Assembly (NCBI GenBank): GCA_937911345.1
Contig: CALDPP010000045.1
Span: forward strand, 1 to 40,388
DNA length: 40,388 nt
Direction of reading: 5' to 3'
Origin: an uncultured euryarchaeote
GTDB taxonomy: Archaea; Thermoplasmatota; Poseidoniia; Poseidoniales; Poseidoniaceae
Shown: piece after piece, positions 27,913 to 39,461 of the stretch
Layout of the letters: each line of letters starts with the position of its first letter
Numbering within the stretch: the stretch's first letter is position 1
Translations under genes and position numbers: made by a program
The notes under the pieces: model-generated
Database searches by the model: none
The model's input: only the letters and a program-made list of their open reading frames with translations
What the model was told of the DNA's origin: nothing

Positions 27913-28611
27913 ATGCGAGTAAAGGTAGGAGAGTTACTACTCGCAATTGGATTCATTGGATTGATGGCAACACTTTACCTTGCCTTTAATTGGGCACCTA
28001 GCGTGAATATCAATGCTTTTGAATCGCCTGAAGCTCAACGAATATTCTATTGGCATGTCCCAGCAGCATGGGCAGCATTCATTGCCTTTGCAGTATTGTT
28101 TGCTGGTTCAGCGTTATGGATGTTCAAGCGTAGTCCACTTGGATGGAAACTCCATGTCGCTGGGTCTGAGGCTGGATTGGCGTGTGGTTTGATGGCCGTG
28201 TGGTCTGGATGTGTATGGGGGGCTGCAGAATGGGGCACTCCATGGGACTGGGAAGATTGGCGTCTCAATACATTCGGCTTACTTACTCTACTTGCTTTAT
28301 TCCTGGTTCTTGGCCGGCAAAGTCAACCCGATGGTGTTGAGAGTAGAGATACATTCTCAACCTTCGGTTTGTACGGCTTTGTACTTGTCCCTTTGACTTA
28401 TGTGGCAACAAGAATATGGGTAATTCGACATCCAGGTCCTGTGATTGCTGGTGAAGAAGGTAGTTCAATATCTGGTGATATGGCTTTAGTGTTAATGATT
28501 GGAGCACTTTCATTTACCATCTTAATTGTTGGCCATATCATTACTTCAATGGAAATTACCAAATTTGAGCAACGATTGGAAAGATTGCAAAAGAGATTGG
28601 ACGGTGAGTGA
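27913..28611 (+). CDS. ccmC: Heme exporter / cytochrome c maturation protein CcmC-like
   Basis: YWHVPAAW and the Trp-rich WGAAEWGTPWDWEDWRL motif, with multiple TM helices. Confidence 0.88.
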   Translation: MRVKVGELLLAIGFIGLMATLYLAFNWAPSVNINAFESPEAQRIFYWHVPAAWAAFIAFAVLFAGSALWMFKRSPLGWKLHVAGSEAGLACGLMAVWSGCVWGAAEWGTPWDWEDWRLNTFGLLTLLALFLVLGRQSQPDGVESRDTFSTFGLYGFVLVPLTYVATRIWVIRHPGPVIAGEEGSSISGDMALVLMIGALSFTILIVGHIITSMEITKFEQRLERLQKRLDGE

Positions 28612-28800
28612 ATGGATGACAAAACATACCTATCAATTGCGTACCTAGGGATGATTTTTGCGATTGCTATTTGGACATGGACGATTGTATCTCGAAGTAG
28701 AACACTAGAGCAGAGGATAATTGCGATGGAAGAAAGCCTCAATGTTGATTCAATCCCAATCGATTCGATAGCTGAGGTAAATGATACTGGTGAAGAATAA
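28612..28800 (+). CDS. Small single-TM protein, CcmD-like
   Basis: 62 aa. TM YLSIAYLGMIFAIAIWTWTIV followed by Arg-rich stretch. ATG directly follows the ccmC stop. Confidence 0.65.
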   Translation: MDDKTYLSIAYLGMIFAIAIWTWTIVSRSRTLEQRIIAMEESLNVDSIPIDSIAEVNDTGEE

Positions 28801-28823
28801 TCTTGGCACAAATTCAAACCAAG

Positions 28824-29921
28824 ATGTACCTACGGCGGGTTGGTGATGGCATGTCAGAACTAGGTTCAGAATTTTGTCTTGTGTGTGGCTCACCACCGCC
28901 GTTATTTGGTGACCGCATGTGTGAATCATGTTTGCGCAAGCGTATCAAGCTAGCAGAAGTACCTGAAAATGTTCCATGGGTAAGGTGTGCAAGATGTGGC
29001 ATTGTGGAAATACAAGGCAAGTGGGTTAACATTTCCGAAGATGAGGTGTGGGATGAGTTGATTCAACGCAATCTAAAATTCCACATTGATGCTGAGGATA
29101 TTGCCATTGGCGTTGAGACAAGAACCGTATCTGACAGGCACACGCTAATCTATCTTCAATTAGAAGGAGTGATAGAATCATTACTGTTCCAAGAAGAGCA
29201 CACGATGCGTGCAAGAATGGCCAATGGAGTTTGCCTTACTTGTACTCGTAGAGCAGGTAATTACTATGAAGCAACTGTCCAACTTCGCTCAACTGGTAGA
29301 AAATTAAGCGAAGAAGAATTTCAAAATCTACGTGCTACTCTTGATACTGTCAAGGAATCACTATCTGATGACCCTATGTTCTTCATAACCAATGAAGGTC
29401 CTGTAACTGGAGGATATGACGTGGTAATGGGTAGTAAGGGACTTGCAAGAGCATGGGGCAGGCACCTCACTAAAGAGTATGGAGGACAAGTTGTTGAAAC
29501 AAATTCCACTGTTGGCCGAAAAGACGGAATTGATGTTACCAGATTGACTCTACTTTATCGAAAACCTGGTTATGAATTAGGAGATGTTGTCAGATGGCGA
29601 GATAATCACTGGAGACCTGCATCATGGACCAAAGATGGGGCAATATTGGAACGTGTAGACCGACAAGAAAGAACTGGTGCAACTTGGCGAGACCTAGAAT
29701 CTTCGCAAGTCAAATCCAGAATGTCAGAGCATATTGTAGTTGATTTAATCAATCAAGATTCTTCAGTTGGTGAATTTTTAGACCCGACTACTTGGGCTAT
29801 GGCATCCGTTAGATTACCATGGGATCATAATGGGAGAATATCGATTAGAATTGCACGTATTGACGGTGAATGGATTGCACTGCATAGCATGGCAATTGAT
29901 GAAAATAGTAGTATAGAGTAA
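28824..29921 (+). CDS. NMD3-like 60S/50S ribosome export/maturation factor homologue
   Basis: N-terminal zinc motifs CLVCG..CESC..CARC. C-terminal VGRKDGIDVTRLTLLYRKPGYELGDVVRWRD. Start uncertain (TTG 28803, ATG 28824 or ATG 28851). Confidence 0.82.
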   Translation: MYLRRVGDGMSELGSEFCLVCGSPPPLFGDRMCESCLRKRIKLAEVPENVPWVRCARCGIVEIQGKWVNISEDEVWDELIQRNLKFHIDAEDIAIGVETRTVSDRHTLIYLQLEGVIESLLFQEEHTMRARMANGVCLTCTRRAGNYYEATVQLRSTGRKLSEEEFQNLRATLDTVKESLSDDPMFFITNEGPVTGGYDVVMGSKGLARAWGRHLTKEYGGQVVETNSTVGRKDGIDVTRLTLLYRKPGYELGDVVRWRDNHWRPASWTKDGAILERVDRQERTGATWRDLESSQVKSRMSEHIVVDLINQDSSVGEFLDPTTWAMASVRLPWDHNGRISIRIARIDGEWIALHSMAIDENSSIE

Positions 29922-29943
29922 AAAGGATGAGCCACACCACCAA

Positions 29944-31026
29944 ATGATGGCGGATATCAATCTTAGTGAATTGGCAACAACCCTCGACAGTGAGGATATG
30001 ATTGGATTCACTAGAGTATTTGTTGAAGACATACGCCGAGGTTTCAACAATGTCACCTTGGAACGCTATCCCTGGATGGAAGAAATTGGCAATACAGAAT
30101 GGAAGGGTGTTTTGGCACTTGGCATGGGAGGTTCAGCGGCCGGTGGCGATTTTCTATCAGCCTTGTGCAATCTTAAGGGAAAAGTACCCGTCGTAGTTCA
30201 GCGCGATTATGTCATCCCATCTTGGTGGGACGAGAAATGGTTGGTCATTTCTACATCCCACAGCGGGAATACAGAAGAGGCAATTGAGGCAACAGAAATT
30301 GTCCTAAAAGCCGGTGCTACTGTAATTGTTATATCGACCGGGGGTATCCTTTCGGGACTCGCAGAACTCCACTACAACTGTTACTTCATACCCTCAATTG
30401 GCGGCCAACCACCCCGGTCTGCATTTGGACACATTTTTGCCAGACAACTTGCTCTATTCAGAGGGATTGGAATTTTACCAGATGATGAAGATAATGAAGC
30501 AATGCTTGAGCGTTTACAATCCGTTGTCGATGATTACGACTTTATTTCCAAGCAGGACTCTGAGTTCATCGAACTAATTGCATTTCTAGCAACTCAGCCT
30601 ATTGCTTTACTAGGGCCAACTGAATTAATGCCAGCGTTAAATAGATTCAAGAACCAACTGAACGAGAATTCTGCAAGATTTGCCAGAATTGGAATCTATC
30701 CGGAGATGAATCATAATGAAAGTGTAGCTTGGGGCGGGGTAGGAGATGATGCTGACTTTAGTGTTGAAGAACAAGTAGTGCTATTCCTGACATGGAATGG
30801 TATGCATTCAAGAGTAGTCAAGCGTTTAGAATGGATGATTGCTCATACGCCTAGTGAACTCGCCTGGAGGATTCATGGCGAAGGTGAATCTTTACTCGAA
30901 GCCTTACTTCATCTATGCATAATCATGGATTGGACATCTATCGCACTTGCATTAGTTCACGGAAAAGATCCATCCGCAATTGGGCCAATCAATTCTTTGA
31001 AGAAATTCCTAGCAGATCAAAACTAA
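29944..31026 (+). CDS. Bifunctional phosphoglucose/phosphomannose isomerase (SIS domain)
   Basis: GMGGSAAGGDF, STSHSGNTEEAI, GGQPPRSAFGHIF, EMNHNESVAW. Confidence 0.92.
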   Translation: MMADINLSELATTLDSEDMIGFTRVFVEDIRRGFNNVTLERYPWMEEIGNTEWKGVLALGMGGSAAGGDFLSALCNLKGKVPVVVQRDYVIPSWWDEKWLVISTSHSGNTEEAIEATEIVLKAGATVIVISTGGILSGLAELHYNCYFIPSIGGQPPRSAFGHIFARQLALFRGIGILPDDEDNEAMLERLQSVVDDYDFISKQDSEFIELIAFLATQPIALLGPTELMPALNRFKNQLNENSARFARIGIYPEMNHNESVAWGGVGDDADFSVEEQVVLFLTWNGMHSRVVKRLEWMIAHTPSELAWRIHGEGESLLEALLHLCIIMDWTSIALALVHGKDPSAIGPINSLKKFLADQN

Positions 31027-35967: not shown

Positions 35968-36987
35968 ATGGGAATCACGGCAATGATACCAGACATGACC
36001 ATTGGCCAACTCCATGTTGAAGCAGTATCTAGATGGGATGAAATCTGGGATGAAAAGGCTGCAAGAATGATGATTTTACTCATGTTTCCCCGGAAACATC
36101 GTAAAATGATGGAATTGCACGGTGACATGGTAGAACACGGACAACCGGTAATGACGGTTTTTCACCGTCCAAGAGATGAAGCAAAACTACTGGAAGACCA
36201 AGGTTTCGATCCACGCTCAGCATCATTCCAATTTGTTGATATTGCTAGCCTTGATTTGGGCCCATGGATGCAGCATCTAATTGGCCAAGAAAAATGGCTT
36301 CGGGGAACAATTGATGTTATGCCAGTACCGTTTTCCATGGGCTTACCCGCTCAAAGAGCATTCGAATCGATGAATATTCTGTGCTTTAGGCACCCTGAGG
36401 TAGATAAACTGGAGAAATATTACCTCCCATTCCCGCCAAAATCGATTCCTGGCAAATGTTTTGTCTCACTTCCAAGACGTCAAGCTGCTGAATTGGCAAG
36501 GCAACAAGCCGAGGTGCTGGGTGTCGGAAGATTGGTCAAGAAATCACAAATTACTGAGCAAGAAGCACCTGTTGAGGCCTTGCCTCCACAGATTAAATCT
36601 CAAGATGAAGCAACTCTAGATGCCGTTTTAGATAACTTTTCGGATCAAATGATGGAAGAAATCACCACCCAAGCAGAGGAAGTGGTCAACGTGCAATTGC
36701 CAACCACCAAGGTAGAAGAAATTCCTGTTATAGATGAAGTAGAAATGACACAAGCCCCACTACCAACTGAAAATGTTGAGATTCCAGTCATTGAAGAAGA
36801 GGAAGAAACTGTCGAAATGTCAGATGTTGAAATTGAATTTAGGGCGCTGGTTACTGAATTAATTGAGGCCGGTGTTGAGCCATCTGAGATGATGGATGAC
36901 CCTCGATGGGAAGACATTAGCGAACGTGCAATGGCAACTGGCTTCGAAACTTGGCCGGTATTCTTGCAACTAACGGCAATGCAATGA
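35968..36987 (+). CDS. Conserved hypothetical protein with acidic Val/Glu-rich linker
   Basis: 339-aa ORF. Start 35968 or ATG 35986. No family recognised. Confidence 0.7.
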   Translation: MGITAMIPDMTIGQLHVEAVSRWDEIWDEKAARMMILLMFPRKHRKMMELHGDMVEHGQPVMTVFHRPRDEAKLLEDQGFDPRSASFQFVDIASLDLGPWMQHLIGQEKWLRGTIDVMPVPFSMGLPAQRAFESMNILCFRHPEVDKLEKYYLPFPPKSIPGKCFVSLPRRQAAELARQQAEVLGVGRLVKKSQITEQEAPVEALPPQIKSQDEATLDAVLDNFSDQMMEEITTQAEEVVNVQLPTTKVEEIPVIDEVEMTQAPLPTENVEIPVIEEEEETVEMSDVEIEFRALVTELIEAGVEPSEMMDDPRWEDISERAMATGFETWPVFLQLTAMQ

Positions 36988-37026: not shown

Positions 37027-37296
37027 ATGGGCTTCTGTATTAACTGCGGCAATCAACACCATGATGGTGTTAGGTTCTGCCGATTCTGTGGCACTGGACA
37101 GCCTAGCGAACAATTGCTAGCCAGACTCCGTGCGGAAGCAGAACAGATTAGATTGCTTAGAATGCAAATTCAGCAGCAACAAGCACATGCTCAAAATGAT
37201 GCTTACGCTAGACTTGAGGCTATGCGACAACAGGCAGAAGCTGCCGCTAGAATGAACAATCAGCAGAATCAACAGTATAGGCCACCGGGTTGGTGA
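37027..37296 (+). CDS. Small double zinc-ribbon protein with Gln-rich coiled coil
   Basis: MGFCINCGNQHHDGVRFCRFCGTGQP then LRAEAEQIRLLRMQIQQQQAHAQ. Confidence 0.85.
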   Translation: MGFCINCGNQHHDGVRFCRFCGTGQPSEQLLARLRAEAEQIRLLRMQIQQQQAHAQNDAYARLEAMRQQAEAAARMNNQQNQQYRPPGW

Positions 37297-37300
37297 TGTC

Positions 37301-37954
37301 TTGCGACCTAAGCATTTGGCAATCGAATTGTCAAAGTTATCTCCACACCCGCAGCATGCTGTTGGATTAGAACAGTATGCTACTGAGGGCGACTTGGCGG
37401 CTTTTTTCGTGTTAGCCATTGACCAGCTTGACACTATTGATGGGAAGAAGATTGTAGATATTGGTGCTGGAAATGGCGTACTTGGCATAGGCTGTGGAAT
37501 CCTAGGTGCCAAGAATGTTACTTTGATCGAAGGCGATAGCGAGGTCTGCGAAATTGCCCAACAAAATAGTTCAGCAATCATGGAAAAATACCCAACAAAA
37601 CTTACTACCATTAACTGCATGATTGGCGTAGATGAGGCACCAAAAAACGTCACTTGTGATATTGTAATTATGAACCCACCTTGGGGATTTCAAACTAGTA
37701 AAGCAGATCGTCCGTTAATAGAGTATGGATTTATGCTGAAACCCGACTCACTATACATCCTGCACTCTGCTAATGCAACCCACCTAGAACAACTTGGAAA
37801 AGCGAACGGCTATGATTGTGAACTTGTGTTTGAAAGCAATTTCAGATTGCCGCCAAAATATCTGCATCAAAGTAGGAAGATGGGTGAAACAGAGGTTAGA
37901 TGTTGGCGGTTCCACAAACCTGGTGACGCTAAAATCAGCACAATCGATGATTGA
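37301..37954 (+). CDS. METTL5-like RNA adenine N6-methyltransferase
   Basis: SAM motif DIGAGNGVLGIGCGILGAKNVTLIEGD and catalytic MNPPWGFQTSKADRPLIE. TTG start. Confidence 0.82.
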   Translation: MRPKHLAIELSKLSPHPQHAVGLEQYATEGDLAAFFVLAIDQLDTIDGKKIVDIGAGNGVLGIGCGILGAKNVTLIEGDSEVCEIAQQNSSAIMEKYPTKLTTINCMIGVDEAPKNVTCDIVIMNPPWGFQTSKADRPLIEYGFMLKPDSLYILHSANATHLEQLGKANGYDCELVFESNFRLPPKYLHQSRKMGETEVRCWRFHKPGDAKISTIDD

Positions 37955-38063: not shown

Positions 38064-39461
38064 ATGACGGCGAGCCTCGTCACCCCCGGAATGCAAGTAT
38101 CTACCACCTCCGATTGTGAGGCTGGTGAAGGAACAGTAGAAGTCGACGGTCGAATTTTGGCGACGATGATTGGAAATTTCACCATCAATGATGGCATTGG
38201 AACTGTTATCGCAGTCAAAGAAGTCTTGACGCCAAGCGTTGGAGATACGGTTATCTGCCAAATTGAGAAACTAAATGAAAAAAATGGCGAAGCAAGAATT
38301 CTTTGTATTGAGGGGAAATCTGGCGATTTATTGCCCGAACATTTGTACGGGCATTTCCACGTCACTGGCCTTGTAGACAGATACATGCACCAAACGGCTG
38401 ATGCCGTACGCCGCCGAGATATTTGTCGAGCACAAATAAAAGAAATCGCTCCAGTTGTACGAATCGACTTTAGAGAACGTGATGACTGTGGCGTTCTTCA
38501 TGCAATCTGCCCATCATGTGGCGATACGCTAGTTGCTGAGGCGCAAGGCGATTGGAATGTCAATTGTAACAGTTGTGAATATCGTTCGTTTAGAGCACTC
38601 GCCGATAACTTTGCAGCTGGCTGGGCTGAACTTGACCAAGGTGCTAGCGTACTGAATAACTCCGGTAAGCGTTGGGGCAGTGAGGCTGAAGCACTATTTG
38701 CCAAAGGACCATCCGGAAGAGCCACCTTCATCGCTGAGGACTTCCGTGAAGATGGTAGAGAACGCAATTACTTCAGATTTGAAGGACAACAGTCAGGCGG
38801 TGGCCAAAGACAGAAAGCTAAGCCTGGCTGCAAATTATTCGTTGGCGGCCTACCAAGAGAAATCGGCACTGAGGAACTTCGTGAAATGTTCTCTAAATTT
38901 GGTGATATGGCAGATTGTTTCGTTCCAACTGATGACAGTGGAGCTAACCGAGGATTTGGCTTCGTAACCTACCATGAAAAATCCGTTGCTGAGGCTGCAG
39001 CAAAAGAACTAGATGGTCATAGAATCAATGGTCGCAGAATTGGCGTTAGAGATGCCGATAGCGACGACAAGAAAGGTAAGAAAAACAACCGAAGAGATCC
39101 TGATGGAATGAAATTCTATGTCGGAAACTTACCCTTCAAAGCAGAAGATTCAACTCTAAAAGAATTGTTTGGCAAGTTCGGCACAGTAGTTGATGTCAAT
39201 ATCATTACTGATAATGGCGGCAGACCCAAGGGCTTTGCATTTGTCACACTGAAAGAGAAGGACAAGGGGGATGAAGTAATCCAACAACTCAACGGTACTG
39301 AGGTATTGGGTAGAAAAATCCGTGTTGATGTTTCACAGAAAAAATCTGGTGGCCAAAAAGATGGCAAGCCAAAGAAAAGTTCCCGTGAATTAAGAGCTAT
39401 GCGTGAAGAGTCAGAAGATAGCAAAAAGCGCAAGCGCAAACCAAGACACAAGAAGGATTGA
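38064..39461 (+). CDS. csl4: Exosome subunit Csl4 fused to two RRM domains and a basic tail
   Basis: Csl4 N-terminus (VTPGMQVSTTSDCEAGEGTVEVDGRILATMIG), S1-like region, zinc ribbon CPSCGDTL...NCNSC; RRM1 LFVGGL...RGFGFVTY; RRM2 FYVGNL...KGFAFVTL; tail KKRKRKPRHKKD. Start trimmed from 37794 to the ATG at 38064. Confidence 0.9.
   Translation: MTASLVTPGMQVSTTSDCEAGEGTVEVDGRILATMIGNFTINDGIGTVIAVKEVLTPSVGDTVICQIEKLNEKNGEARILCIEGKSGDLLPEHLYGHFHVTGLVDRYMHQTADAVRRRDICRAQIKEIAPVVRIDFRERDDCGVLHAICPSCGDTLVAEAQGDWNVNCNSCEYRSFRALADNFAAGWAELDQGASVLNNSGKRWGSEAEALFAKGPSGRATFIAEDFREDGRERNYFRFEGQQSGGGQRQKAKPGCKLFVGGLPREIGTEELREMFSKFGDMADCFVPTDDSGANRGFGFVTYHEKSVAEAAAKELDGHRINGRRIGVRDADSDDKKGKKNNRRDPDGMKFYVGNLPFKAEDSTLKELFGKFGTVVDVNIITDNGGRPKGFAFVTLKEKDKGDEVIQQLNGTEVLGRKIRVDVSQKKSGGQKDGKPKKSSRELRAMREESEDSKKRKRKPRHKKD

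Follow-up and report, generated by a model that had tools for sequence, protein, structure and literature searches.

Archaeal exosomes read RNA through the S1, KH and zinc-ribbon domains of their caps and through DnaG. Canonical archaeal Csl4, as represented by the A. fulgidus protein (AF_0206, PDB 2ba1) and the family NF034126, ends at the zinc ribbon after about 180 to 200 amino acids. This end has been extended by design: when the N-terminal, RNA-binding domain of DnaG was placed behind the C terminus of Csl4, the product bound RNA and still anchored to the ring, and the S. solfataricus exosome carrying it degraded poly(A) faster (PMC4227792). In eukaryotes, RRM-based targeting of RNA to the exosome is known from RBM7 of the NEXT complex, a separate adaptor that acts with ZCCHC8 and MTR4 outside the core cap subunits (PMC5146272). 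We found nothing relevant in the open-access literature on a fusion of Csl4 with RRMs or on the exosome of MGII archaea.

Domain organization of the extended Csl4

The window analyzed here, a stretch of 40,388 nucleotides from an uncultured euryarchaeote of the Poseidoniaceae, carries on its plus strand, at positions 38064 to 39461, a single uninterrupted open reading frame of 465 amino acids that starts with ATG at 38064, ends with the TGA closing at 39461 and contains no internal stop codon. The encoded protein consists of a Csl4 part, a conserved linker of about 60 amino acids, two RRMs and a basic tail, and thus exceeds canonical Csl4 by 285 residues. The Csl4 part (residues 1 to 180; 38064 to 38603, plus strand) comprises an N-terminal exosome-anchor domain, an S1-like region and a four-cysteine zinc ribbon, the domains by which a Csl4 is recognized. 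NCBIfam model NF034126 for archaeal Csl4 matched residues 5 to 183 with 94.4 bits (cut-off, 90), while the match to Pfam ECR1_N was below threshold. A profile built from this part and seven relatives matched the 179-aa A. fulgidus Csl4 over its full length (E = 1.2e-47; positions 7 to 188 of 189), with all three regions aligning end to end. The zinc-ribbon cysteines C149-xx-C152 and C168-xx-C171 (38508 to 38576, plus strand) are invariant in an alignment of 34 sequences and are present in both families of the Poseidoniales.

Residues 181 to 241 (LNNSGKRWGSEAEAL...DFREDGRERNYFRFEG; 38604 to 38786, plus strand) form a linker that is found in both Poseidoniales families and that, on sequence comparison, has no counterpart in the Csl4 of the sister order or of other Thermoplasmatota. 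Within the genus it belongs to the most conserved segments, and N198, G201, R203, W204, D226 and R228 are conserved across both families. This conservation suggests a role in docking or positioning. The linker is followed by a variable, Gly/Gln-rich and probably flexible segment (residues 242 to 255; 38787 to 38828, plus strand) with low pLDDT and, in several relatives, the highest dN of the compared regions.

RRM1 (residues 256 to 332; 38829 to 39059) and RRM2 (residues 348 to 425; 39105 to 39338) lie on the plus strand, as do the basic linker of residues 333 to 347 between them (39060 to 39104) and the Lys/Arg-rich tail of residues 426 to 465 (39339 to 39458), which has a pI of 10.6, a calculated charge of about +11 and a predicted helix, SSRELRAMREE. 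Pfam RRM_1 (PF00076) was matched twice (E = 1.8e-41; best stretch, residues 258 to 326), and the NCBIfam model NF058537 for RRMs of RNA-binding regulators covered both domains with 118 bits (cut-off, 100). AlphaFold predicted two RRMs of beta-alpha-beta-beta-alpha-beta topology with block-mean pLDDT values mostly between 69 and 86; with the shallow alignment of 34 close relatives used, the Csl4 part was of low confidence, and no confident Csl4 core was obtained. With this fold and with RNP2 and RNP1 motifs in each domain (LFVGGL and RGFGFVTY in RRM1, FYVGNL and KGFAFVTL in RRM2), both are RRMs. By sequence and by fold, the latter from Foldseek, the pair most resembled the tandem RRMs of Sex-lethal, HuD/HuR, hnRNP proteins such as hnRNP A1 and PABP, a generic RRM similarity that implies no orthology.

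The aromatic residues F259, F298, F300, Y352, F391 and F393 of the RNP motifs are invariant in the 34-sequence alignment, and the RNP aromatics are kept in every distinct domain examined (21 for RRM1, 23 for RRM2 and 19 for the RRM of the sister family); over about 60 distinct domains, the aromatic and basic positions of RNP1 and RNP2 are nearly invariant. An initial sequence-only reading of this DNA had described the RNP motifs as intact, which applies to these key aromatics, whereas RNP1 of RRM2 contains the two key aromatics but lacks the last one, a position held by V, I, L or M in relatives. The retained aromatics point to RNA binding by both domains. That a complete Csl4 continues in frame into two RRMs and a basic tail, the central claim of that reading, is borne out by the open reading frame and by the NF034126, NF058537 and Pfam matches.

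Since the sequences come mostly from metagenome assemblies and, among the relatives, one assembly is frameshifted locally around residue 400 (L007) and another has an N-filled gap (L043), a chimeric or frameshifted assembly was considered as the source of the fusion. The same single-frame fusion is, however, present in a chromosome record of 2,064,136 bp (CM001443.1; L049/L113), in AG-333-I22 (L061), an assembly without MAG label, and in a large number of other genomes. When the genomes of the class were searched with the linker-RRM part, a match was obtained in 316 of 347, and in 37 of the 38 of high quality; stand-alone RRMs from the sister order are counted among these matches. Codon comparison with 11 relatives revealed strong purifying selection along the whole protein, junction included: RRM1 and the junction linker are among the slowest parts (dN 0 to 0.2, with synonymous sites mostly near saturation), and RRM2 and the tail evolve faster. 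The fusion is therefore genuine; an artefact is extremely improbable, and the assembly join between zinc ribbon and RRM1 against which the sequence-only reading had cautioned is rejected on the grounds of the independent assemblies, the 2.06-Mb chromosome and the selection across the junction. An apparent third RRM in L043 turned out to be the N-filled gap.

Distribution, gene neighborhood and origin

The architecture differs between families in a way that the sequence-only reading had not mentioned, as it had not mentioned the conserved linker. In the family of the window (Candidatus Poseidoniaceae/MGIIa), Csl4 and linker are followed by two RRMs. In the sister family of the same order, which by its taxonomic rank is probably the MGIIb clade, the position of RRM1 is taken by a treble-clef zinc finger (CxxC-x17-CxxC; TIGR04272, PF23477), followed by one RRM. 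Both Poseidoniales families thus carry fused forms of Csl4, and no stand-alone RRM gene was found in the genome of the window or in the sampled Poseidoniales genomes. In a third family, from the sister order of the same class and, again judged by rank, probably Marine Group III, a short csl4 (open frame of 185 to 214 aa) and a gene for a single-RRM protein elsewhere (open frame of 85 to 105 aa) are separate. The finding that would have spoken against a fusion, separate csl4 and RRM genes in related genomes, was thus encountered in the sister order only, where it fits the fusion being the derived state. Two genera of this order differ in their zinc ribbon: Csl4 of genus g18 (L096, L095, L097) lacks most of the metal-binding cysteines (RCDVTHDILK...LWSEELRR), and that of genus g17 (L094) keeps its C-xx-C pairs.

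Outside the class, an RRM was found in 18 of 146 sampled Thermoplasmatota, in every case as a stand-alone open reading frame of 81 to 158 aa, and none of the 146 encoded a Csl4-RRM fusion; in this sample, RRMs are uncommon, as had been supposed for archaea at large. Csl4 likewise ends where expected, with just 9 to 24 residues beyond the zinc ribbon in most of the other Thermoplasmatota proteins retrieved. Long Csl4 open frames from other families in the phylum were rejected as further C-terminal domain fusions, because the extra length comes from read-through on the upstream side and Csl4 itself lies close to the C-terminal end. The exceptions are Arg/Gly-rich, RGG-like tails of 123 residues (L110:3082-4029, minus strand) and 60 residues (L108:2938-4017, minus strand), possibly another kind of RNA-binding extension, in view of which RNA-binding additions may have been made to the C-terminal end of Csl4 more than once.

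The csl4 gene occupies a single locus with conserved synteny. Upstream of it lies the gene for a small class-I RNA/protein methyltransferase (37301 to 37954, plus strand; PF05175/PF03602), and this order is common to the sister order and several other Thermoplasmatota, which indicates that the locus is orthologous and that the extension was added to it. The simplest course, we infer, is a single gain in the ancestor of the Poseidoniales followed by a change of module, for which the RRM tree of 79 columns is too short to provide proof. In this weakly resolved tree, the fused RRMs cluster apart from the stand-alone ones, with one long-branch exception. The latter, such as the 103-aa protein L100 of the sister order, match the same subfamily model, NF058537, but are single-domain proteins encoded by separate genes.

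Downstream, 25 bp after the fusion gene, a radical-SAM protein gene begins that is cut by the contig end (39487 to 40388, plus strand; PF04055). A radical-SAM protein of about 590 to 610 aa is encoded directly 3' of csl4 in both Poseidoniales families (L113:4713-6551, L118:4022-5782); no NCBIfam family matched it above the cut-off, and weak similarity to MiaB/RimO was seen in L113 and none in L118. The methyltransferase-csl4 pair is preceded by genes for a 339-aa protein (35968 to 36987) that matches no Pfam or NCBIfam family and for a small zinc-ribbon protein (37027 to 37296), both of which recur in other Poseidoniales loci.

The exosome partners are encoded in the same genome. Rrp4 and two RNase-PH proteins (Rrp41/Rrp42) lie together on one contig (C147, about 28600 to 31000; L002, L137), separate from csl4 and next to open reading frames that by eye resemble proteasome alpha and SBDS. 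DnaG, with its N-terminal region kept, is encoded on a different contig (C125). No second csl4 was detected in the genome, which is 86% complete; the only other Csl4-like match was Rrp4. We therefore rejected a replacement of lost DnaG or Rrp4 by the RRMs. While the fusion predicted from the sequence alone was confirmed, the role otherwise taken by DnaG or Rrp4 that had been assigned to the RRMs is not supported, and the RRMs probably supplement a normal cap.

Possible role of the RRM arm

We consider it likely that the tandem RRMs act as a tethered arm that captures RNA and feeds it to the exosome pore, alongside Rrp4 and DnaG. As in other archaea, the N-terminal domain of Csl4 would dock on the Rrp41/Rrp42 ring, with the zinc ribbon at the rim. 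From there, the conserved linker of about 60 residues and the short flexible segment would carry the two RRMs and the basic tail. Through the aromatics of RNP2 and RNP1, the RRMs would hold single-stranded RNA, so that substrates at the pore become locally more concentrated, are chosen more selectively, or both, in addition to the contributions of Rrp4 (KH/S1) and DnaG. This proposal builds on the retained RNP aromatics and on the engineered precedent, in which an RNA-binding-type domain was likewise appended behind the zinc ribbon of Csl4 (PMC4227792). By analogy, cap-borne recruitment of RNA by the fused RRMs is plausible. The engineered protein is artificial, carries a DnaG domain and works on a reconstituted exosome (PMC4227792), whereas the natural fusion, known here from its sequence, uses RRMs that are not homologous to the N-terminal domain of DnaG, and DnaG stays a separate gene; for this protein, we infer exosome assembly, RNA binding, sequence preference and an effect on degradation. 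Several points weigh against an RNA-capture arm: the ligand of an RRM can be a protein and not RNA, RRM1 as a whole has a slightly acidic pI of 5.3, the low-confidence Csl4 model provides no geometry relative to the pore, and with one RRM and a treble clef in the sister family, recognition by tandem RRMs is not essential to the conserved role.

Instead of selecting substrates by sequence, the arm might chiefly work as an RNA chaperone or a cold-type remodeller, so that structured RNA stays open to the exosome in cool marine water. In favor of this are the marine, non-thermophilic life of MGII archaea, the match of the RRMs to the Rbp-type model NF058537 and the basic tail, a typical feature of RNA-annealing proteins. 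A stand-alone protein of broadly this type, cyanobacterial Rbp1, is required for adaptability to cold (PMC9333190). The RNP motifs retained in each RRM, however, are of a kind fit for specific contacts with single strands, and we regard this role as unlikely, although it is a version of the recruitment idea and not exclusive of it. Less probable still are RRMs that hardly bind RNA and dock the exosome on the ribosome, RNA polymerase or a helicase. Some eukaryotic RRMs do bind proteins, and the conserved linker and the tail could be docking motifs; the near invariance of the aromatic and basic RNP1/RNP2 positions differs from what is seen in many RRMs that do not bind RNA. The separate genes of the sister order would also agree with mere co-expression, in which a captured free RNA-binding protein acts independently or is cleaved off. 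Such an arrangement appears very improbable, as the junction linker is highly conserved within the genus and kept in both families, both of which are fused and, as far as sampled, devoid of a stand-alone RRM gene.

Taking the RNA-capture arm as the preferred reading, we tentatively extend it to an idea that is possible but rather doubtful: the C terminus of Poseidoniales Csl4 could be a docking site at which RNA-binding modules are exchanged (two RRMs in one family, a treble clef and an RRM in the other, and RGG-rich tails in some other Thermoplasmatota), giving the archaeal exosome a lineage-specific, sequence-selective choice of substrates, while the invariant linker would serve as a docking or gating element of a new kind. 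If true, a single polypeptide would here correspond to the RRM adaptors of eukaryotes, NEXT among them, the likeness to RBM7 (PMC5146272) being a functional analogy.

With Thermoplasmatota as the genomes surveyed, the Csl4-RRM fusion seems to be undescribed, and its novelty is that of a new domain architecture in a known complex. It is a natural counterpart of a hand-built fusion that sped degradation, and it offers a clear example of RRMs becoming part of the machinery for RNA decay in a non-eukaryote. With an RRM-bearing cap subunit, fixed across a highly abundant order of marine archaea, substrate selection by the archaeal exosome becomes directly testable on one protein.
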